Origin: Methanolacinia petrolearia DSM 11571
GTDB taxonomy: Archaea > Halobacteriota > Methanomicrobia > Methanomicrobiales > Methanomicrobiaceae
Assembly: GCF_000147875.1 (NCBI RefSeq)
Contig: NC_014507.1
Coordinates: 1,178,001 to 1,242,000 of the forward strand
Length of the DNA: 64,000 bases
Direction: 5' to 3'
Position numbers and translations under genes: made by a program. Positions 390 to 52,313 of the stretch are shown in pieces (position 1 is the first letter of the stretch; each line of letters opens with the position of its first letter). A model generated the notes under the pieces. The model saw nothing but the letters and a program-made list of their open reading frames with translations, searched no databases and was not told the origin of the DNA.

Positions 390-729
390 ATAATAAGGAA
401 AAACTGACCTGAATCCCTTTTTCGGGTTGAAAAATTCAAAATTTTTTATATCCGCTTCCGGTCTCGATCTCGTATAATAATCCATCATCTTCATATGGAA
501 GGGATCATATTGTAACGATATCGCCCGGGAAGGCAGCCATAGGATTTATGATCCTGTATCCTTCAAAAAATGCAATTTTTCGTATTGTAAAAATCAATAT
601 TATTCAAAATTCATGTCTTAATTGAAACAAATGTGTGGTTGAAACGAAAAACTGTTGCATCAATTTCTTAAAGTTTATCATGATCAGGGCTATTATCATT
701 TACTGTCTAAGAATGATGGAACGATAATT
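390..729. other. gene-free stretch upstream of a histidine kinase gene
   Basis: No convincing coding frame is seen in these 340 bases. A T/A-rich run at about 436-450 (a TTTTTTATAT tract) could be an archaeal TATA element, and the last 100 bases are AT-rich as expected for a promoter. An in-frame TTG at 655 would lengthen the kinase gene, but the added residues do not look like part of its receiver domain. Confidence 0.4.
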
Positions 730-3240
730 ATGTCATACGGGGAGCAGGAGAATTCCGGCATATCACTTCTTTATGTCGATGATGAGCCGGTTCTTCTTAA
801 TATGAGCAAATTATTTCTTGAGAAAATAGGCGGCTTTTCAGTAACAACAGCAGGGAATGCAAAAGATGCCCTTAAGCTTCTGTCGGAAAAACCCTTTGAT
901 GCAGTAGTCTCCGATTACCAGATGTCCGGTATGGACGGTATCGGACTGCTGAAATCTCTCCGGAGCTCCGGCAACAGAATCCCTTTCATTATTTTTACCG
1001 GAAAAAGCAGGGAAGAGGTTGTAATAGAGGCGTTAAACGAGGGCGCGGACTTTTATCTCCAGAAAGGCGGAGATCCTAAATCACAGTATGCCGAACTGGC
1101 GCATAAGATTAAAAGCGCAGTAAAAAGCAGAAGATCGGAAGAAGCACTTGAAAAGCGTGTGATAATGCTGACTCAGCCGCCGGCGGAAGGCAATATCGAG
1201 TTCGAGGATCTGTTCGATATCGATGAAATCCAGCGGATCCAGGACGATTTTTCAACAGGTGCCGGCGTCGCATCGATAATTACCCGGCCCGACGGAACGC
1301 CGATTACAAAACCGAGCAATTTTACGCGGCTGTGCAGCGATGTCATCCGGAAAACCGAGCACGGCTGCAAAAACTGTTATATCTCCAACGCCACGGTCGG
1401 GCGGCCTAATCCTGACGGTCCGACGGTGCAGAAGTGCTTAAGCGGCGGCCTCTGGGATGCCGGTGCGAGTATTATCGTCAATGGCAGGCACATTGCAAAC
1501 TGGCTCGCCGGTCAGGTCCGAAACGAAGCCCAGACCGAAGAAAAGATGCTCGAATATGCCCGGAAGATCGGTGCTGACGAAAATGTCTTCCTCGAAGCAT
1601 ATTATGAAGTACCTTCAATGTCGACGGAGAGGTTTGAAAACGTTTCAAAAGCATTGTTCGCGATGGCGAATCAGCTTTCAAAATCCACGTATCATAACCT
1701 CCGGCAGGCAAGGTCAATTGCCGAACATGAAAGGACGAAGAAGGAACTTCTCCGGAAGACCGGGGAACTCAATACTGCCTATGAACAGCTTGCCGCCTCT
1801 GAAGAAGAGCTCAGGCAGAATTACGACGAACTGGTAAAAAGTGAAAAGGAGCTTCGCGAAAGCGAAGCGAAGTTCAAAACGCTTGTCGATCTTTCCCTGG
1901 ACGGCATCCTGGTGGTGGATTTCTCGGGCAAAATCCTCTTTGCCAATATGGAAATCAGCCGAATTCTGGATGTAAAAGATTGCAAATCCCTGGCAGGGAC
2001 AGCAAATATTATGGATTATATCGCACCCGAATCCCGTGCCGGACTTGAAAAAGATCTGGGCTGTGTTCTGCGGGGCATAGACCGGTACCCTGTCGGCTAT
2101 AAGATCATAAATGAAGCGGGAAGGGAGATCTGGATCGAGTGCATAGGAAAAAAGATTCTTTTTAATGATTCGGAAGCGATGCTGGTTTTCATCTGGGACG
2201 TTACAGGCCAAAAGGAGATTGAAGAGCAGCTGAAGGAATCGGAGAATAAGTTCACTACCGTTTTTATGAACAGCCCCTTTGTATTGACTCTCATATCCGG
2301 AACCGACCAGAAATTTACGGATGTCAATGAGAAGTTCGTAAATCAAACCGGCTATTCCGTGGAGGAGACCATCGGAAAAACACCCGGGGAGCTTGGGATC
2401 TTTCAGGATAATAATGAGTATAAAGCATTGCTTGCTGCTATTAGGGAAAGAGGTGCCATTGATAATTATGAGATCAAGTGCCGCAAAAAAAACGGGGAGA
2501 TAAATCTCTGCTGTTTCACATCGAGATTTATCCGGATGGGTGGAAAGCCTTTTTGCCTGGCGGTCGTGGAGGATATTACCGAACGGAAGACTGCGGAAGA
2601 GGCCGTGAGATTTGCGAACAGGAAACTAAATATTCTCTCTGATATCACACGTCACGACATCCTGAACCAGCTGATGGTGATTAAGGGTTTTCTTGAAATT
2701 GCAGAAGATCATGTCCTGGACCAGCCGGGAGCAGATTGCCTCAATTATATAAAAAAGGCCTCTTCGGCTATCCAGCGTCATATCGAATTTACACGGGAAT
2801 ACGAGAATCTCGGAGTCAACAAACCCGTATGGATGGATATCCGGGAATTGATCAGCGATTCCGGGAACGAGAAAGTGGTTCTTTATAACGATTGCCGGAA
2901 TATCGAGGTGAATGCAGATCCTATGCTCGAGAAGGTGTTTTTGAACCTGATGGACAACACGATCCGTCATGGCGAAGCGACCGAAGTCCGGGTCGGCTGC
3001 GAAATATCCGGCGATCTGCTGAAGATATTGTGGGAGGACAACGGGACAGGTATCCCGGACTCCGATAAGGAAAGAATATTTGAAAAAGGGTTTGGAAAAA
3101 CTACCGGTTTCGGACTTTTCTTATCAAGAGAGATCCTTTCGATAACGGGGATCTCCATCTGTGAAACCGGAGAAGAAGGTGTTGGGGCACGTTTTGAGAT
3201 AAACGTTCCCGGAGAGCATTTCAGGGTTGTCAACAGCTGA
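730..3240 (+). CDS. Hybrid sensor histidine kinase: receiver, PocR, two PAS, kinase
   Basis: Cytoplasmic signalling protein of 836 residues counted from ATG 730. Receiver domain at about 12-130 has the D-D-E acidic pocket, phosphoacceptor D62 (V-V-S-D-Y) and K92. A PocR ligand domain spans about 165-340, with the cysteine-rich stretch H-G-C-K-N-C and a later K-C-L. A short coiled coil, two PAS domains (about 380-630), a dimerisation helix with H642 in T-R-H-D-I-L-N-Q-L, and a complete HATPase (N-T-I-R-H-G, E-D-N-G-T-G-I-P, G-F-G-L-F-L) follow. No membrane segment is seen. PocR domains sense small hydrocarbon-type ligands in other systems; the ligand here is unknown. No partner regulator gene is adjacent. 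ATG 730 was preferred to TTG 655 because the receiver begins right after it. Confidence 0.88.
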   Translation: MSYGEQENSGISLLYVDDEPVLLNMSKLFLEKIGGFSVTTAGNAKDALKLLSEKPFDAVVSDYQMSGMDGIGLLKSLRSSGNRIPFIIFTGKSREEVVIEALNEGADFYLQKGGDPKSQYAELAHKIKSAVKSRRSEEALEKRVIMLTQPPAEGNIEFEDLFDIDEIQRIQDDFSTGAGVASIITRPDGTPITKPSNFTRLCSDVIRKTEHGCKNCYISNATVGRPNPDGPTVQKCLSGGLWDAGASIIVNGRHIANWLAGQVRNEAQTEEKMLEYARKIGADENVFLEAYYEVPSMSTERFENVSKALFAMANQLSKSTYHNLRQARSIAEHERTKKELLRKTGELNTAYEQLAASEEELRQNYDELVKSEKELRESEAKFKTLVDLSLDGILVVDFSGKILFANMEISRILDVKDCKSLAGTANIMDYIAPESRAGLEKDLGCVLRGIDRYPVGYKIINEAGREIWIECIGKKILFNDSEAMLVFIWDVTGQKEIEEQLKESENKFTTVFMNSPFVLTLISGTDQKFTDVNEKFVNQTGYSVEETIGKTPGELGIFQDNNEYKALLAAIRERGAIDNYEIKCRKKNGEINLCCFTSRFIRMGGKPFCLAVVEDITERKTAEEAVRFANRKLNILSDITRHDILNQLMVIKGFLEIAEDHVLDQPGADCLNYIKKASSAIQRHIEFTREYENLGVNKPVWMDIRELISDSGNEKVVLYNDCRNIEVNADPMLEKVFLNLMDNTIRHGEATEVRVGCEISGDLLKILWEDNGTGIPDSDKERIFEKGFGKTTGFGLFLSREILSITGISICETGEEGVGARFEINVPGEHFRVVNS

Positions 3241-15918: not shown

Positions 15919-18900
15919 TCAGCTGCCGACTGATTCCATATCCCTGATAAGATCTGCGAGGGCCTTCTTTTTTGCAGGGTTCTTCTCCTTAATAATTGCC
16001 ACGGAGATTACCGGGATTATCGTTTTTCCTCTTTTTTTGAGTGCTGAGTTCGCAACCGCCACGATCTCCGGGTCGGTGTCGAAGAGCGAGTGAAGAAGCG
16101 GCCGGACGGCACTGATATCATCGATGCCTGCAAAGACTTTGGTCGCTCCCATTCTGTTTTCGGGGTCCGTATCTTCGAGCAGTTGGGAGATCATGTCGAT
16201 TGCATCCTCACCTTTTAACTGGAGCTCTATCCATCTCTTTTCCTTAACGAGGGTTGCAATCTCCTCCTCTTTCGATATCTCTCTTATAAGGAATTTAAGA
16301 GCCTCCCGTCTTGCAGGATTTGGGGTCTCCCTGCAGATCTTTTCCAGTTCCGGAATCGCTTCGCCGCCGGTATTCAGCAGGCCGTGCCGTGCGGTAACCG
16401 CGATCCTCTCGTCATTATCGAAGAGCATCTCAGCTAGAGGGCAGACTGCCTCTTCTCCCCCGATTTTTGAGATCACCGAGATCATCTGTCTCTTTGTTTC
16501 CGGATCGGCGGAGCCCGTCCTTTCGGAGATATATTTGATCGCCACCGGTCCTGACCCGGCAAGTGCGTTCCAGTCCCCTGTCTCTATAGATTTTTTAATG
16601 AGATCTTTCTGGTCGATCTCCCGGATTATCGATTCGATCTCTCTTTGCCGCCCGGCATCTTTTTCCTTCGAAGCGATCTCCGTTAGCGCCGGAACCGCGT
16701 TCCTGCCCATGTCAAGGATCCCCTGCCTTGCAGTCCGGGAGATCTCTTCATCGATATCGAAGACCGCTTTTGAAAGGGATGGCATGGCCTTCGTTCTGCC
16801 GATCCTGATCAGGGTCTTCAGTGCATCCGTCCTCTTTTTGGAGTAGGGGTTTCCGATAATCTGTGAGAGGGGTTCGAGTGCATAATCTCCCGACTTCTCA
16901 AGTTCGTCCCATCTTCCCTTTGCCGCATAATACCACGCGATGTCACTACTGTCGGCCGGTATGAACTGCATCTTGTCCATGGTCGCTGCAATTCTCTCCC
17001 TGAACTGGTCGCTGCCGTTCCCTTTCAGCTCTTTGAGGAGGATCGGTTGTGCCGCTTTTCCGTAACCGACAAGCGAATCGGATGCAAGATCCGCGAGCGT
17101 ATCCTCGGAATAGTTCAGGACCGATACCAGGGGGCCGATCGCCCTTTCGTCTTTGATCTTTGCAAGAAGGCGGACTGCCAGGGTCTTTACCCCGGGATCC
17201 GCATCGGCGAGTGCGGAATGAAGTGCGTCGGGAATTCTTTTGTCGTTCGAATCCTTTGTGAATGCGAGTATGAGTGCCTTCCTGACCTCAGGGTTCTTCT
17301 CGCTCTTGATCCTGTCGTATACGGCATTCACCGCCTCCGGGTCTTTGCTCTTCAGGATGGTCTTTGCAATGACGACCCTCATTTCGGTCCGGCCATAGTT
17401 AAGTGTCCTGATCATCCCCCTGATTCCCGGTTTTCCGATTTTGATAAGGATTTCAGCAATTTTTGCCTGGAATTCCGGTTCGGCGTTGTTCATGAAGCTG
17501 AGAAGGGGCTCGACGGCAGGCTCGCCGATCTTTATAATTTTTGCAGTCGAAGATGATTCTGTTGCAGGATCGCTGCTCTTCAGGCCGACGATAAGCATGG
17601 AGACCTCCATTGCAGCTTTCTTCTTGAGTGCGAGCTCCTTTTTGATCAGGTCGTCGATCTCGTTCTGGGTGAGCTGCTTCTTGATGTCCTTCGCGGCATT
17701 CTCTTCCTTCTCCGAGGATGCCCTTTTGATGAGATCGTCGATCTCGTCCTGGTTGAGCTTTTTGCCAAGCAGTTCCGTAGTATTTTTATTGCTTACATAG
17801 GCCGAACGGTGGATGAGTTCGTCGATCTCATCCTGCGAGAGTTTCTTCCCGAGGACTTTTGAAGTATCTCCTTTCTTTGCCTTGAGGCCCCTGATCAGAT
17901 CTTCGATCTCGTTCTGCGAGAGCTTCTTCCCGAGGATCTCCATTGTCGCGGAGTCGTCCGCACCGATTAAGCGGTCGAGAAGGCTGTCGATCTCCTTTAG
18001 CGACAGCTTCCTCTTCAGCAGGTCGGCAGTCTCCCTGCTGTACTCGCGAATCCTGTCCTTCTCCTTCTTGATCTCTCTCTTTCTGTATACTTCGAGGATC
18101 TCCGATGCATTTCGCCGGACCTCCTCGTCGTCGTCGGCGAGGAATCTTTTGACGACGGGAACGATCTTTAAATCCTGGAGTCTTGAGAGAACGCTGAGCA
18201 TTCCCAGCTTCTCCATCTTGGTCCCCTGGATGCTGACCCTCTGGATCTCGTTCATCAGGAAGTTGAACATGAAGCCGCTGATGCGGACAAGGGCATCCAT
18301 TGCCTCAATCCTGACGTTGTACTCGGAATCGTTCAGGGCCTTGGTCCCGAAAGGAATTCCGGACGGATCGCTGATCCCGCCGAGAGCCCTGAGAGATGCT
18401 ATCCTGACATCCGGATCATTGTGTGATACGAGATTTTCGATGAAGGGAAGGGCGATGTTCCCCATCTTTGCGACCGATTCGGAACACTCGTTGCGTACGT
18501 TCTCGTCGGGGTCTGCAAAGTGCCTGACAAGAACTGGCAGCGTTCCTTTATCACGGATCTTTCCGAGGGCATAGGCAGAAGCCCTTCTGACCTCGTGATG
18601 CTCGTCTTCGATTGTCTTTACGAGCGATTCGATGGCATCTTTCGCGTACAGGTCGCCGAGCGATTCGATGGCGACGGTCTTCACGTTCTCCTTTTCGTCG
18701 TTCAGGAGAAGGATCATGATCGGGATGGCTCTCTTCCCGTGCCCTTTGAGATTTTCGATAGCCGTTATTCTTATGATGTCGTCTTCGCCGGAAAGAGAGG
18801 CAGAGAACCTTTCAGCCATCTCCTGGTTATAGCCGTTCTCAATGAAAGCGTGATGCCAGTAATCCCTGGAATTATATTCCCTGATCTCGTTCTCTGATGC

Positions 18901-20025
18901 CGAATCGCTTCCTGTTTTTTCCGCGGATTCCTTTTCGTTGGTGCTGAAATATTCAAGGGCCTCCTGTATTCCTTCACTGATCTCAGGTGAGGATTTGTTT
19001 TCTGCCTGCCTGAGGGCCTCATATGCCGGTTTCCCCATGGAATACAGGACCTTTACGGAATTTTTTCTTATATTGTGATCCGTATCGCCGAGACTTTCGA
19101 TGAGGGGAGTGAGTGCCGTCCGGCCCATCAGTTCGATCTCCCTTAAGTCGCCCTGGAGGATAAGCGCCCTGACCTTTTCGTTGTAGCTTGCTGGTCTCCA
19201 TCCGGCTTTTCGGAGTGCCCATGAGGTCTCCACCCGGACGTCGTAATCGCGGTCGTACATGGCGCCGGCAAGATAATTCATGAGTTCCGGGTCACGGGTT
19301 TCGGCGACTGCATCGATCGCAGCCAGTCTGACTTTTTTATCGGGATCTCCCAGAATTGAAAGGAGAATTTTTTTGGATTCATTTCCTTTCGTCCCTGCCA
19401 GAATCCCGGCGAGTTTTATTCGCACTTCGGAATCGGGATTATTTAGCCCGAATTTTACCGCTTCAAGTGCGAACGGCCCTGACTTTCCCAGTTTGTCCCA
19501 GTCTTCGTCGGCCATATAGAAGAAGGCCATCTCGACAGGGTTGACCGAAGTCCAGTTCAGTTTTTTCAGCGATTCTGCTGCCTGTTTCCTGACTTCGCGT
19601 TCGTCGTCCTTAAGCATATACAAGAGCATGTTGACGAAATCGGCCTTCGGGTTATGGATATAGCCGATGGATATGGCGGCGCCTTTTCTGGCTTCGGGTG
19701 TCCCGTCCCTGATCATCTTTGAAAGAGGAGTTGTAATCTTCCCGCCGTTGCCTATGATGTATGCGATTGTTCTTGCAGCACCGTCCCTTGCATTTTTCTT
19801 TCCCGAGGCAAGAAGTTTCAGAAAAGTATCGATATCTCCTTCGCTGTATGTGCCGAGGATCTCTGCGGCGCCGTCCCGGATATCAGGATTTTCGCTGTTC
19901 AGGATATTTAAAAGCTGCAGGGATGCGGGTTTCCCGATCTTTTTCAGTCCTTCGATCGCAGATCTTCGCTCTCGTTTGTTTCCGGATTCCAAAAGATTCA
20001 GGAGTTCGGCGGTGTTTTCGTTCAC
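15919..20025 (-). CDS. Large HEAT-repeat protein with five LSQxEIDxLI motifs
   Basis: 1368 residues, GTG start at 20025. Almost the whole protein is HEAT/PBS-lyase-type repeats (A-A-E-S-L, D-P-D-x-x-V-R patterns) in two long arrays at about 1-660 and 800-1368. Between them lies a charged linker (about 665-800) with five copies, spaced roughly 27-29 residues apart, of K-L-S-Q-x-E-I-D-x-L-I. This resembles the N-terminal peptide of FliM that docks phosphorylated CheY. No signal peptide or membrane helix, so cytoplasmic. HEAT arrays are protein-binding scaffolds; the linker may recruit receiver-domain proteins (inference). Not part of an operon. Confidence 0.82.
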   Translation of the reverse strand: MNENTAELLNLLESGNKRERRSAIEGLKKIGKPASLQLLNILNSENPDIRDGAAEILGTYSEGDIDTFLKLLASGKKNARDGAARTIAYIIGNGGKITTPLSKMIRDGTPEARKGAAISIGYIHNPKADFVNMLLYMLKDDEREVRKQAAESLKKLNWTSVNPVEMAFFYMADEDWDKLGKSGPFALEAVKFGLNNPDSEVRIKLAGILAGTKGNESKKILLSILGDPDKKVRLAAIDAVAETRDPELMNYLAGAMYDRDYDVRVETSWALRKAGWRPASYNEKVRALILQGDLREIELMGRTALTPLIESLGDTDHNIRKNSVKVLYSMGKPAYEALRQAENKSSPEISEGIQEALEYFSTNEKESAEKTGSDSASENEIREYNSRDYWHHAFIENGYNQEMAERFSASLSGEDDIIRITAIENLKGHGKRAIPIMILLLNDEKENVKTVAIESLGDLYAKDAIESLVKTIEDEHHEVRRASAYALGKIRDKGTLPVLVRHFADPDENVRNECSESVAKMGNIALPFIENLVSHNDPDVRIASLRALGGISDPSGIPFGTKALNDSEYNVRIEAMDALVRISGFMFNFLMNEIQRVSIQGTKMEKLGMLSVLSRLQDLKIVPVVKRFLADDDEEVRRNASEILEVYRKREIKKEKDRIREYSRETADLLKRKLSLKEIDSLLDRLIGADDSATMEILGKKLSQNEIEDLIRGLKAKKGDTSKVLGKKLSQDEIDELIHRSAYVSNKNTTELLGKKLNQDEIDDLIKRASSEKEENAAKDIKKQLTQNEIDDLIKKELALKKKAAMEVSMLIVGLKSSDPATESSSTAKIIKIGEPAVEPLLSFMNNAEPEFQAKIAEILIKIGKPGIRGMIRTLNYGRTEMRVVIAKTILKSKDPEAVNAVYDRIKSEKNPEVRKALILAFTKDSNDKRIPDALHSALADADPGVKTLAVRLLAKIKDERAIGPLVSVLNYSEDTLADLASDSLVGYGKAAQPILLKELKGNGSDQFRERIAATMDKMQFIPADSSDIAWYYAAKGRWDELEKSGDYALEPLSQIIGNPYSKKRTDALKTLIRIGRTKAMPSLSKAVFDIDEEISRTARQGILDMGRNAVPALTEIASKEKDAGRQREIESIIREIDQKDLIKKSIETGDWNALAGSGPVAIKYISERTGSADPETKRQMISVISKIGGEEAVCPLAEMLFDNDERIAVTARHGLLNTGGEAIPELEKICRETPNPARREALKFLIREISKEEEIATLVKEKRWIELQLKGEDAIDMISQLLEDTDPENRMGATKVFAGIDDISAVRPLLHSLFDTDPEIVAVANSALKKRGKTIIPVISVAIIKEKNPAKKKALADLIRDMESVGS

Positions 20026-21156: not shown

Positions 21157-21312
21157 GGAGTCATGATTCAGGGAGTGCAGTCCGGTATTTTACACAGACT
21201 CTTCATGCCCGCATAACAGATTTATTATTGCAGAAATCGTAATAATACACTAACTGAATAATGCTTAAACGTATATTAAGTTAAAAACTCAAAAGAGGTG
21301 AAATCAGGTCAG

Positions 21313-21525
21313 ATGAAATTCAGAGTGATCATAGAAATGGACGAAGACGGAATATTTGTCGCCGAATGCCCGTCTCTTCCGGGCTGCATATCTCAGGGAA
21401 AAACCAGAGCCGAAGCACTTGAAAACATAAAGGACGCTGCAAAAGGGTACCTGGAAAGTCTGAAGAAACACAACGAACCGATCCCCCCGTCAATATATGA
21501 AGAAACCGTGGAAATTAGCGCCTGA
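21313..21525 (+). CDS. hicB: HicB-type antitoxin
   Basis: 70 residues with the HicB partial RNase H fold: F-R-V-I-I-E-M-D-E-D-G, then A-E-C-P-S-L-P-G-C-I-S-Q-G and a helical E-A-L-E-N-I. It should bind and inhibit the HicA toxin encoded three bases downstream. ATG 21313 was chosen; GTG 21298 in the same frame overlaps the GAGGTG ribosome binding region. No DNA-binding domain follows, so autoregulation may rely on the complex. Confidence 0.85.
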   Translation: MKFRVIIEMDEDGIFVAECPSLPGCISQGKTRAEALENIKDAAKGYLESLKKHNEPIPPSIYEETVEISA

Positions 21526-21528
21526 TAT

Positions 21529-21852
21529 ATGCCAAAATTACCTGTATTATCTCATCTTGAAGTAGTAAAAGCACTTAATAAAATCGGTTACAATATCGGC
21601 CATCAGACCTGTAGCTATGTTATCCTGAGGCAGGACACAGAACCCTATCGAAGGCTTACTATTCCAAACCACAAGGAAATTTCAAAAGGAACAATAAATA
21701 GCATCATTAGACAGGCAGGACTTACAAGAGACGAATTTATAGAACTATTATATCCTTCCCCCTTATTGCGATATTGTCGCCGACCGAAGGGCTGTCGCCC
21801 TTTCGAAACCCCGGGCGACCTTCGGTCACCATTCGTGAAAATTAGTTTTTGA
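21529..21852 (+). CDS. hicA: HicA-type mRNA interferase toxin with repeat-derived C-terminal extension
   Basis: 107 residues. The first ~75 match HicA: a dsRNA-binding-like fold with V-K-A-L-N-K-I-G-Y, a G-H-Q-T-C-S-Y-V block in place of the usual catalytic-His segment, and the end pattern G-L-T-R-D-E-F-I-E-L-L. HicA proteins normally stop about here. The remaining ~30 residues (C-R-R-P-K-G-C-R-P-F) are encoded by a dispersed hairpin repeat at 21776-21830, so the original stop codon appears to have been lost by repeat insertion. Activity may be altered. The neighbour upstream is its antitoxin. Confidence 0.82.
   Translation: MPKLPVLSHLEVVKALNKIGYNIGHQTCSYVILRQDTEPYRRLTIPNHKEISKGTINSIIRQAGLTRDEFIELLYPSPLLRYCRRPKGCRPFETPGDLRSPFVKISF
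21776..21830. repeat. GACCGAAGG hairpin repeat, copy 1
   Basis: Outer arms GACCGAAGG and CCTTCGGTC pair over about 50 bases; an inner arm AGGGC / GCCCT forms a second stem, followed by TTTCGAAACCCC. This copy lies inside the end of the hicA reading frame. Confidence 0.7.
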
Positions 21853-27880: not shown

Positions 27881-30223
27881 TCAGTCGATTTTTCCAAGGC
27901 CGTAATGTGTCTTTAAGTAAGCCCAGATCTTTTCCGAACGTACCCATCCTTCATCCAGCATTTTAACCATCTTGTCGATCTCTTTAACCTGATCGGTTAT
28001 CTCTTTTGCAGATTCCGGGCATTTGAGATCGGCAAGGCCTAAAATGACGGCGAGCGGGTTCCTGATCTGGTCGTTCAATGTTGCAAGCTGTTCCATATTC
28101 TCCTCGATCTGCCTGAGAGAGGCTTTTTCACGCATTTCTGCTTCCTTTTCTGATGTTATATCCCTCACTATGTGGACCCATCCCTTCTGGTTTCCGCCGG
28201 AATCATAGAGTGAGGATATCGAATGCTCTGCCGGAAATACGGTGCCGTCTTTTCTTTTCATCCTGAATTCAAATCTTGGCATTTCCGTATGCCCGGTTAA
28301 GTAAGAGTGGATCTGTCTGGTGAACTGCTCTACTGAATCGCCGTCTACGTGTAGAAGGTCCGGTTTTTTACCCGTCATTTCTTTTATGCTGTATTCAAAA
28401 AGTTTTGAGGCGGCTTTATTTGCCTTTCTTATTGATAGCGGATGGGCATCAAGGACAAATGCTGCATCCCGGAGCGATTCGAATGTCTGTGAGAAGAGTT
28501 CCTTTTCACGTATAAGTTCGTCTTCAGCCCTTCTGGTCTTCAGGATCTCCCACATCAGGTTTCCGAGAGTGGTAAGGGCGTCGGTATCATCTTCGCAATA
28601 TTGTGTTTCTTTGTTGGCGACGATAATAATTGCAGTGATCTTTCCTGAGTCAAAGATGGGGACTGCAAGGATACGTGAAATCTCAACGTGTCCTTTGGGA
28701 AGACCGCGTTTTCCGGGATTGTCCTGTGAGTATTCGTTCACTATGACAGGTGCCCGCTTCCGGACGCACTCGGCCCAGATCCCCGCTGATTTGATAGGGA
28801 GATGTTTTTGAGTGGCCTGGACTTCGCACCTCTTCATCACATCCTTTGACCACTGGTAAACGATCATCTCAGATTCGTCGGCCGTAAGAACTCCTATGAA
28901 CCCATATTTGCTTTCAGTCATGGATCTGCTGTTTTCAAGGGCGTGGAGCATCAGGTTCTCCTCTGATCCGCCTGAAATCCGGTAAAGGTCAAGAAGCCAT
29001 TTTAAACGTTCGAGATGAAGCCTGTTCTTGTCATTTACTTTCTTCTGTTCGGTTACATCCCAGACCATTGAGATGATCTGTCCTTTTTTGTCAAGCGGAA
29101 TGTTTCTCATGTTGATATAGGTGGTCTCCCCTCCCGAACGGGTTACAGGGACCTCATACCATTGCATTCTTTCCGGACCGCCCGTTTCAATCTCGGTAAG
29201 AACCTTCTTCTTTATCTCTTCCCTGAAGACGGGATCCTCATAGGCATTTTCCCAGAATGCATCGATATTTTCAAGTGCTTTTTCAGATATCCTGTGATAT
29301 TTAAGAAAATTCTGGTTGTAGTATACAAAACCGATCTCGGGTTTTAACGTTAAAACGGCTATGCCGACCGGGATGCCATCAAGTACGTTTTTTATGTATT
29401 CTTCATTATCCTTCAATTTCTTTTGAGTATCTTCCAATTTTTTTAAATGCTGCTTCAGTTTCTCTTCGATCTGTCTTTTTTCGGTTATGTCACTGACTAT
29501 TGCTCCGATCCCTGTTCTTCCCGGGGAGATCTCAAGGGGGAATTTCATGCACCTGAGATATCTGTTGCCTATGTTCTCCTCCGTGAATACAGGCCGTCCT
29601 GTTTTCAATGCCTTCTTTTCTGCCATATGGCATGTCTCAGCGTTTTTTTCACCCAGGAGGTCGCGGTCGGTTCTATTACTCAGTTCATCCCGGCCGACTC
29701 CGAAAAAATCCAGTGCTGCGTTATTGGCGATCAGGTACCTGAGATTTTCATCCTTGACGAACATTACGTCGCTGTTTGAATAGAAGAACGACCTGATGAT
29801 CGATTTCTTCTTCCGTTTTATCACGAGCTGGTTTATCTTTTCGGAAAGCCCGGCATACAGCGTTTCAGGATCGCCGTCTCTTTGGATATAATAATCCGCC
29901 CCGCTGTTGAGCGTACTGATAACGTTATCCTCGTGCCCCTTCGGGGTGAATATTATGACAGGTGTTTCGTCCCCGCTTTCACGGAGTCGGCTGATAAACG
30001 AGGTGCCGTTGCAGCCGGAAGTTATGCATCCTGCAACTATTGCGTCAAACTTTTTCTTTGACAAAATCCTGAGGGCATCTTTTTCACTTTCGCAGGCTTC
30101 AACTGAAATGCTTCCTTTTTCTTTAAGAACAAGTCTTCCTTTTTCCGGAATTGGTGAGGATTCATCAATGTATAATACGGAAATTGTTTCAGTTGTTTTC
30201 GTGTTCTTTTTTAATGCTGCCAT
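27881..30223 (-). CDS. Receiver-PAS-PAS-GAF-PAS signalling protein lacking all phosphotransfer residues
   Basis: 780 residues: receiver-like domain (14-135), PAS (about 140-265), PAS (275-400), GAF (410-570), PAS (580-700) and a final two-helix domain (705-780). In the receiver, the usual phosphoacceptor Asp is Gly65 (I-V-A-G-C), though T-P-K-G with the lysine remains. In the last domain the H-box reads L-N-D-Q-I-R-N-P-L, without His, and no HATPase follows. It therefore cannot act as a normal kinase or phosphoacceptor. It may be a ligand-sensing adaptor; similar tails occur in other methanogen proteins (recollection). Cytoplasmic, monocistronic. Confidence 0.82.
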   Translation of the reverse strand: MAALKKNTKTTETISVLYIDESSPIPEKGRLVLKEKGSISVEACESEKDALRILSKKKFDAIVAGCITSGCNGTSFISRLRESGDETPVIIFTPKGHEDNVISTLNSGADYYIQRDGDPETLYAGLSEKINQLVIKRKKKSIIRSFFYSNSDVMFVKDENLRYLIANNAALDFFGVGRDELSNRTDRDLLGEKNAETCHMAEKKALKTGRPVFTEENIGNRYLRCMKFPLEISPGRTGIGAIVSDITEKRQIEEKLKQHLKKLEDTQKKLKDNEEYIKNVLDGIPVGIAVLTLKPEIGFVYYNQNFLKYHRISEKALENIDAFWENAYEDPVFREEIKKKVLTEIETGGPERMQWYEVPVTRSGGETTYINMRNIPLDKKGQIISMVWDVTEQKKVNDKNRLHLERLKWLLDLYRISGGSEENLMLHALENSRSMTESKYGFIGVLTADESEMIVYQWSKDVMKRCEVQATQKHLPIKSAGIWAECVRKRAPVIVNEYSQDNPGKRGLPKGHVEISRILAVPIFDSGKITAIIIVANKETQYCEDDTDALTTLGNLMWEILKTRRAEDELIREKELFSQTFESLRDAAFVLDAHPLSIRKANKAASKLFEYSIKEMTGKKPDLLHVDGDSVEQFTRQIHSYLTGHTEMPRFEFRMKRKDGTVFPAEHSISSLYDSGGNQKGWVHIVRDITSEKEAEMREKASLRQIEENMEQLATLNDQIRNPLAVILGLADLKCPESAKEITDQVKEIDKMVKMLDEGWVRSEKIWAYLKTHYGLGKID

Positions 30224-50198: not shown

Positions 50199-51332
50199 TC
50201 AGAGCGATTCGGCTGTCCTGTACATTTCCTTTTGAACCGTTATCAGAAAACGGGCTCCTTCCCCGTACACACCGTCTTCTGTGATCGATATTCCGGTGAT
50301 GGACAATATCTCACGCGAAAGGAACAGGCCGAGACCGGTATTTTTTCCATAACCCCTGTCGAAGATCTTTTCTTTTTCTGCTTCAGGAATCCCTATTCCG
50401 TTGTCTTTGCAGATAATGTTCAGATTACCTTCGTTATCTTCAGATGCTGAAAAATAAATCCCTGTTACTTTTTTCCCGTGCCTTACGGCATTGTCGAACA
50501 AGGTGTAGATTACCTTTTCAAAGAGCGGGTCTGCATAGATCTCATAGCCGGTGAGTTCATTTGTAACCGCAAGATCCCTGAAGGCCGCCCTGCCTGTTCT
50601 TTCGACGATTCTGCCGATATCGTACCATCCGGGCGATTCAACTCCCATATCCTGGTAATCTTTTGTAAAATTGATCTGCTGCTTAATGTTCTCAAGAGCG
50701 CTTTCAATTCTTTTAAATGATTTATACTCCTTTGAATCGGCAGGGATTAGGTCTTCAATCCCCAGCAGGTTCAGGGACATTATAGCAACCGTCAGCTGGT
50801 TAAGAATATCGTGGCGGGTAATGCTGTTCATAAGATTTAGTTTGTTGTTTACGATCTTGAGGGTATTTTCCGCTTTTATACGCTCGTTGAGTTCCATTAT
50901 CGCCGTATCTTTCATATGGCGAAATGCCTGGACTTCGTTTATGAGATTTGAAACATCCTCGCAGATTATGATTGCATTATATTTTCCCGGACTATCCGTC
51001 TTTGATGCAACTACCGTGGTGTGCTGGATACGCATGTTCCCGTTATGGAGTTTGGACGGAATCAGGTATTTATGGAGCTGCGAAGAGAAACTATCCGGCG
51101 GACCGCCGTTGAATATGAGTTCGAATCTTTTTTGAAAATGCTTATTGTTTAATTTCTCACATTTATCCCTGAGATCCGTTCCTTTTATTCTGTCTTTTTT
51201 AATTCCCGACCAGTTTTCGAGGCACCTGTTCCAGAAAAGGACCTGAAATTCAGGGTTGATAACGCAGATGCCTACCGGGAGGGAATCATATAGTGCCAGC
51301 TCTTCTTCCCTCTCGTTGATATTTGTGATCAT
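50199..51332 (-). CDS. PAS-domain histidine kinase in a CheY-CheC operon
   Basis: 377 residues, no membrane segment. PAS at about 12-130 (L-P-V-G-I-C-V-I-N-P-E), a coiled coil, then the dimerisation helix T-R-H-D-I-L-N-Q-L (His about 176) and HATPase with D-N-A-V-R-H-G, D-N-G-I-G-I-P and N-T-G-L-G-L-F-L. It is closely similar in its kinase half to the gene at 730. The start overlaps the cheC stop by ATGA, so it is last in a three-gene operon. Confidence 0.88.
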   Translation of the reverse strand: MITNINEREEELALYDSLPVGICVINPEFQVLFWNRCLENWSGIKKDRIKGTDLRDKCEKLNNKHFQKRFELIFNGGPPDSFSSQLHKYLIPSKLHNGNMRIQHTTVVASKTDSPGKYNAIIICEDVSNLINEVQAFRHMKDTAIMELNERIKAENTLKIVNNKLNLMNSITRHDILNQLTVAIMSLNLLGIEDLIPADSKEYKSFKRIESALENIKQQINFTKDYQDMGVESPGWYDIGRIVERTGRAAFRDLAVTNELTGYEIYADPLFEKVIYTLFDNAVRHGKKVTGIYFSASEDNEGNLNIICKDNGIGIPEAEKEKIFDRGYGKNTGLGLFLSREILSITGISITEDGVYGEGARFLITVQKEMYRTAESL

Positions 51333-51946
51333 AAGCCGGAGCTCTCTTCAGCGGATATGGTTTCAATTTTTTTCAGGAGCAGATTGAGTGATTCGATTTC
51401 AAGCATCAGAAAAATTATTCCTGTGACATTAATATTTTCGACATAAAAATTGGTCGTTGTGAGGAGAACGTTTTCATTATTTGTGGTCTCTTTAAAATCT
51501 TTGAGAACTTCGATTTTATCCTCGTAATAGTCGGGAAGCGAGTAACTTATATGTTCCCTGAGGAAATTGCCGATTGATCCCATAACCCCGTTGATAAACA
51601 GATTTCCTACTTCCTTCAGCGTCTCTGCTCTTATTGAATCAAGTTCAGGGGTGTCCGGTTTTTCATCGGTGATAGCCATCACCAAGGCTGCAGCACTGCC
51701 CGAGGGGAAAACGAGTACTGATGTGCCTGAGAACGGTCCGCTGAAATCAAGCCGTACCTGTGCGCATATTTCGTTTTCGGGAACCAGATCCTGGCTGCCG
51801 ATATCGTTGATGTTTATAATTTGAACCTGCGGTACACTGAGCCGGATATGAGATGCGGTTATTTCATTGAGAAGAGATGCCGCTTTTCCTACCCCTATAT
51901 TCATAATCTCGGTGAGTGCGTCGAAGTCTTCAGGGCTGACATTCAT
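51329..51946 (-). CDS. cheC: CheC-like chemotaxis phosphatase
   Basis: 205 residues from ATG 51946, directly after the response-regulator stop. It has the CheC pattern: D-A-L-T-E-I-M-N-I-G-V-G-K-A-A (first active-site helix, with E and N) and E-V-G-N-L-F-I-N-G (second site). CheC dephosphorylates CheY-P. TTG 51964 is in frame but lies inside the previous gene. With the neighbouring CheY and a soluble kinase it makes a small phosphorelay with its own off switch. Confidence 0.87.
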   Translation of the reverse strand: MNVSPEDFDALTEIMNIGVGKAASLLNEITASHIRLSVPQVQIININDIGSQDLVPENEICAQVRLDFSGPFSGTSVLVFPSGSAAALVMAITDEKPDTPELDSIRAETLKEVGNLFINGVMGSIGNFLREHISYSLPDYYEDKIEVLKDFKETTNNENVLLTTTNFYVENINVTGIIFLMLEIESLNLLLKKIETISAEESSGL

Positions 51947-51947
51947 A

Positions 51948-52313
51948 TTAATCTCTACTTCCAAGTATCCTGTTTATTGCAGTGGTTAGCTTGTCGTGAT
52001 TTATCGGTTTGTTGATGAAGTCCGCGGCACCCAGTTCCATGCAGAGATCGTGTGAAGTGTCCTGGATGTCCGCCGAAGCGATTAGAACCGGTATGTCGAC
52101 AGACTTTCTTTTTAGTTCCTTCAATACTTCGAATCCGTCGAATTCAGGCATAAGGAGATCAAGAATTATCAGATCAGGTTTCTTTTCTATTGCCAGCTCG
52201 ATTCCTTCGACTCCTCCTTTTGCAGGGATTACTTCATGTCCGGATTTTTTCAGGATTGAGGATATCGTCGTTCTCTGGAATTGTGAATCGTCAACGATTA
52301 ATATTAATGCCAT
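51948..52313 (-). CDS. CheY-like single-domain response regulator
   Basis: 121 residues: D-D at V-D-D-S-Q-F, phosphoacceptor Asp in L-I-I-L-D-L-L-M-P (about residue 53), Ser/Thr switch S-A-D and K in N-K-P-I (about 103). No output domain, so it acts by protein contact. First gene of the operon with cheC and the histidine kinase. Confidence 0.9.
   Translation of the reverse strand: MALILIVDDSQFQRTTISSILKKSGHEVIPAKGGVEGIELAIEKKPDLIILDLLMPEFDGFEVLKELKRKSVDIPVLIASADIQDTSHDLCMELGAADFINKPINHDKLTTAINRILGSRD

Follow-up and report, generated by a model that had tools for sequence, protein, structure and literature searches.

The window analysed here is a stretch of 64,000 nucleotides from Methanolacinia petrolearia DSM 11571, whose genome comprises 2,843,290 bases. 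The open reading frame at 15919–20025 (minus strand) starts with GTG and encodes a HEAT-repeat protein of 1368 residues. The Pfam search gave HEAT_2 with an E value of 1.8e-100, and the other matches were to HEAT-type or other helical-repeat families. Foldseek searches with the HEAT flanks returned alphaRep, the PP2A A subunit and karyopherins. The protein thus belongs to the HEAT-repeat proteins by Pfam profile and by Foldseek, with the repeat linker itself lying outside. A PADLOC match was rejected, as it was merely to a generic HEAT-ARM model. Orthologs were found in seven other genomes; their start codon is GTG or TTG and lies at a similar position. Two adjacent small reading frames at 21298–21852 resemble HicB and HicA, a toxin-antitoxin pair, as judged from their sequences.

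The five-unit array between HEAT arrays 2 and 3

The protein consists of HEAT array 1 (aa 1–355, 18961–20025, by Pfam), HEAT array 2 (aa 396–645, 18091–18840, by Pfam and AF2), a five-unit repeat array (aa 664–806, 17608–18036) and HEAT array 3 with a C-terminal HEAT region (aa 807–1368, 15922–17607, by Pfam), all on the minus strand. The sequence-only reading had described five copies of a FliM-N-like motif in a linker between two HEAT arrays. The five copies were confirmed in this reading frame and their inter-array position was correct, but there are three HEAT arrays and the repeats sit between the second and the third.

The motifs start at aa 672, 700, 727, 755 and 783, with periods of 28, 27, 28 and 28 residues. 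Each motif is part of a longer unit of 27 or 28 residues, T-x-x-[LI]-L-G-K-K-L-S-Q-x-E-I-D-x-L-I-x-x-[SA], and the FliM-N-like core in each unit is L-[STN]-Q-x-E-I-D-x-L-[IL], the Q being absent from copy 1. On the minus strand, motif 1 (RKLSLKEIDSLL, 17977–18012) carries L instead of Q. Motif 2 (KKLSQNEIEDLI, 17893–17928) is the least conserved copy, and motif 3 (KKLSQDEIDELI, 17812–17847) is the most FliM-like copy in its own genome, with 24.2 bits on the FliM matrix described below. Motif 4 (KKLNQDEIDDLI, 17728–17763) has N instead of S. Motif 5 (KQLTQNEIDDLI, 17644–17679) has T instead of S and is preceded by Q, not K; it is the most conserved copy, and its AKDIKKQLTQNEID is invariant. The five spaced copies proposed earlier stand, but copies 4 and 5 deviate from the proposed consensus at these residues.

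Structure prediction was performed with AF2 in two runs, one without an alignment and one with three sequences. The HEAT helices on either side of the array mostly reached a pLDDT of 70–89. In HEAT array 2, the value was about 70–80 over most of the first 150 residues (no alignment) and 75–85 at the end (three sequences). The pLDDT of the array was about 30–50, which is no proof of disorder because the alignments are shallow and disorder is inseparable from an unrecognised fold. Every motif was modelled within a short helix, beginning close to S or Q in motifs 1–4, and another helix preceded each of motifs 2–5. Motif helices inside ordinary HEAT repeats had been named beforehand as the outcome speaking against a docking role; AF2 does not place them there.

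Conservation and rarity of the array

The array was found in eight genomes of three genera, all of them Methanomicrobiaceae. Confirmed carriers in the GTDB contig collection were limited to two Methanomicrobiaceae MAGs. No other part of the protein is as well conserved as the array: the mean pairwise identity of the orthologs is 0.71 for the array and 0.77 for the motif cores, whereas HEAT arrays 1–3 reach 0.51, 0.64 and 0.48 and the C-terminal HEAT region 0.36. In copies 2–5, Q is present in 32 of 32, E in 31, I in 32 and D in 28, with variation at the intervening positions. Conservation extends to the helix ahead of each motif, where position –2 is always L or I. Units at the same position across genomes share an identity of 0.72, whereas different units within one protein share 0.37. 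Therefore, all five copies were already in place when the genera diverged, and all have been retained since.

A paralog in the same genome (G000:C1:710108-713056) has no motif repeats in the linker between its arrays 2 and 3. The layout of three HEAT arrays is common to an order-wide multi-array family, whose nearest homologs are about 37–40% identical over arrays 1–2; unlike the protein at 15919–20025, this family has no motif strip in its array 2–3 linker. The array is therefore most simply explained as a gain in one branch. In one carrier genome (G014), the ortholog (L055 7216–11357) has a frameshift just after motif 5, which results in frames of 834 and 571 residues. The frameshift could reflect decay, a sequencing error or coincidence. 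G014 is also without the orphan CheC-like protein described below.

The DNA pattern L-x-Q-x-E-I-D-x-hyd-hyd had three matches in the own genome, all within the HEAT gene. When 40 related genomes were scanned, 27 of 31 matches fell in the same gene, in eight genomes. This concentration puts the five-copy array far from chance. In a phylum-wide DNA scan of 393 archaeal genomes, matches clustered at the repeat spacing only in the HEAT gene. The remaining matches were few and scattered, like those of a reversed-pattern control, and no evident chemotaxis link was seen in their proteins. A 152-aa open frame in another archaeon of the phylum (L148) starts with MTDELSQGEIDTLL, a near-perfect FliM-N match (LSQGEIDTLL). 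This protein is apparently unrelated to the HEAT protein; therefore, the motif alone is no proof.

FliM-N likeness and chemotaxis context

In FliM, CheY binds at the consensus LSQxEIDxLL (PMC5677366), and the bacterial CheY site has also been given as EIDALL (PMC9126983). Copies 2–5 fit this N-terminal CheY-P-binding sequence, but they are internal. A 10-position FliM matrix was derived from the FliM N-termini of ten bacteria, E. coli among them; with so few sequences, its bit values are rough. When 300,118 windows from archaeal open frames were scored, the array copies topped the list with 28.9 down to 13.0 bits; all 40 copies of the eight orthologs lie within this range, and the first unrelated window scored 13.7. 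Genuine FliM sequences scored 24.7–31.2 bits, a range that includes the copies LSQAEIDELL and LSQDEIDELL. In a comparison with EF-hand hairpins, whose sequences came mostly from general knowledge, the own-genome units scored 17.1–24.0 and the hairpins –5.9 to 7.6 on the same matrix. On an EF-hand matrix, the array units obtained 4.1–13.3 versus 21.9–27.8 for EF-hands. Of 62 generic capping-box helices, 4 have Q after the capping S, versus all 32 of copies 2–5; the latter are not independent events because the units descend from one ancestor. By the matrix and the EF-hand comparison, the likeness noticed in the sequence-only reading is specific, scoring above a generic helix cap, and it is conserved in each copy across eight genomes.

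The family libraries were less telling. The whole linker matched the NCBIfam profile of FliM, TIGR01397, with an E value of 0.0014 and 17.8 bits at profile positions 2–30, and FliY, in which the FliM-N peptide occurs too, was also among the weak matches. Unrelated families scored as high as FliM, so the library searches do not decide between a FliM-like peptide and a helix cap. Single units searched against NCBIfam gave no FliM match and nothing relevant. Membership of the FliM family (TIGR01397 / PF02154) was rejected, the score of the linker standing against a cut-off of 219.6 and covering N-terminal profile positions only. FliM middle and C-terminal domains were rejected as well, since Pfam on the whole protein gave helical-repeat families instead. 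An EF-hand or calmodulin-type hairpin was rejected with EF-hand_7 at 19.1 bits against a cut-off of 30 and with the low EF-hand matrix scores. Among PDB sequences, weak calmodulin and light-chain matches to the unit appeared because LGEKxTxEEV resembles it.

The candidate partner in the window is a stand-alone CheY-type receiver recognised by Pfam (51948–52313, minus strand), which has no linkage to the HEAT gene. Further receiver genes lie at 655–3240 and 27881–30223. The receivers to which the earlier reading had pointed (655–3240 and 51948–52313) do exist, but they are far from the HEAT gene and are not its neighbours. The CheY gene adjoins a CheC/CheX-like gene (51332–51964) and a kinase gene (50202–51332). 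Together, 50202–52313 forms an orphan cassette of CheY, CheC/CheX-like protein and histidine kinase, apart from the che cluster. A second CheY-CheC pair is located elsewhere in the genome (G000:C1:595689-596643), and the CheC-like protein of the cassette recurs in many Methanomicrobiales.

M. petrolearia possesses flagellin and chemotaxis genes, and motile cells have been reported (PMC3035365). The genome contains 31 receiver matches and one archaellum-chemotaxis cluster, arlH-I-J, cheF, cheY, cheB, cheA, cheC and cheD, with gene names assigned partly by sequence inspection. The CheY of this cluster closely resembles that of T. maritima, the construct of entry 4iga included, with a gapless alignment over nearly the full length. 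CheA, CheF and CheY are present in all carriers, and equally in most of the array-less relatives. Their presence does not separate carriers from non-carriers, and their co-occurrence is uninformative because they are nearly universal. The region from alpha4 to alpha5 of CheY, the FliM-type groove, is nearly invariant in carriers and non-carriers alike. Seven of the eight carriers have the CheC-like partner of the window CheY; roughly half of the remaining family members have it too, and it was therefore dropped as evidence. Neighbours of the HEAT gene are shared only within a genus; no neighbour gene in the window is kept near it beyond that. The invariant groove, the unseparating Che genes and the lack of conserved neighbours indicate that the context permits docking but does not favour it.

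Possible roles of the strip

Archaea have a Che pathway taken over from bacteria but lack FliM. The linker may be a multivalent docking strip for CheY-type receivers; this is the leading reading, with a probability estimated at about 0.4. Such docking is plausible but unproven. A receiver would bind the FliM-N-like amphipathic helix of each 28-aa unit in its alpha4-beta5-alpha5 groove, and the most likely such receiver is phosphorylated chemotaxis CheY. As archaeal CheY-P binds CheF through a different face (PMC9126983), the strip could keep several CheY-P molecules bound, either as a buffer or to pass them on to CheF at the archaellum motor. It would then work much like FliM-N, which is the tether in the two-step bacterial switch (PMC9126983). 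We infer the binding, its dependence on phosphorylation and the role at the motor. The receiver dock suggested in the sequence-only reading gains from the specific, conserved FliM-N likeness and from the position of the motifs outside confident HEAT structure, and loses from the missing gene linkage, Che correlation and altered CheY groove. That the HEAT scaffold is a multivalent receiver hub, having evolved a five-fold FliM-N-like CheY-P tether in one methanogen family that functionally replaces the missing FliM-N beside the unrelated adaptor CheF, is less likely than not. If docking is true, the strip would be, to our knowledge, the first multivalent version of the FliM-N docking peptide. 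A conserved five-copy strip of this kind in a motile archaeon makes it possible to test cheaply and directly whether the FliM face of archaeal CheY is still in use.

The main rival is structural, and it has a serious chance that falls somewhat below even odds. The five units would be helical hairpins (helix T-x-x-L-L-G-K-K, turn L-S-Q, helix D-E-I-D-E-L-I) forming a purely structural spacer or small solenoid that joins HEAT arrays 2 and 3, and the FliM likeness would be convergence on a helix-capping box, S/T-x-x-E being a standard one. This alternative stays in the foreground because the pre-motif helix has no FliM counterpart and because there is no operon, co-occurrence or groove signal. 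It agrees with the conservation of that helix including position –2, with its prediction by AF2 before motifs 2–5 and with the weak matches to myosin light chain, calmodulin and other helical hairpins (for example LGEKxTxEEV). However, the FliM matrix gives low scores to EF-hands, as does the EF-hand matrix to the units, the Q that is invariant in copies 2–5 is uncommon in generic capping-box helices, and the packing of the hairpins is not confident in AF2, albeit with few sequences.

The same helices may instead dock repeated copies of a non-receiver partner, such as a HEAT, cytoskeletal or motor protein. The strong copy-by-copy conservation with variable positions between would suit any partner, and the HEAT flanks resemble scaffolds with varied partners (PP2A A subunit, karyopherins). 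This is unlikely, as the match with FliM-N at L, S, Q, E, I, D and L would then be a coincidence. A repeat without function, born by chance or slippage, is hardly credible: slippage can create tandem repeats, but the number and position of the units are conserved across three genera, and the unit identities of 0.72 and 0.37 contradict it.

With FliM-N, the array has in common the core L-S-Q-x-E-I-D-x-L-[LI] and a helix that starts at the motif S in the AF2 model, and its best copies score like genuine FliM. FliM-N is a free N-terminal peptide, whereas the five copies of the array are internal and in tandem, and the archaeal HEAT protein that carries them has no FliM domain. In addition, the array has the extra conserved helix (T-x-x-L-L-G-K-K) before each motif, and its last hydrophobic residue is often I where FliM-N has L. 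CheF (PF04283), the archaeal CheY-P adaptor, serves archaeal CheY output, as the array would, and accompanies it in all carriers; its fold differs from that of the HEAT protein, and it binds CheY by another face (PMC9126983). According to a 2009 paper, archaea had no known counterpart of the CheY-P-binding peptide (PMC2666748). Halobacterium OE2401F (HEAT_PBS), likened here by its description, is an archaeal HEAT protein like that at 15919–20025; it is encoded in the che region, and only HEAT-like repeats and no further domain were detected in it (PMC2666748). Both this protein and CheF are needed for motor switching in Halobacterium, and OE2401F interacts with CheF (OE2402F) and CheD (PMC2666748).
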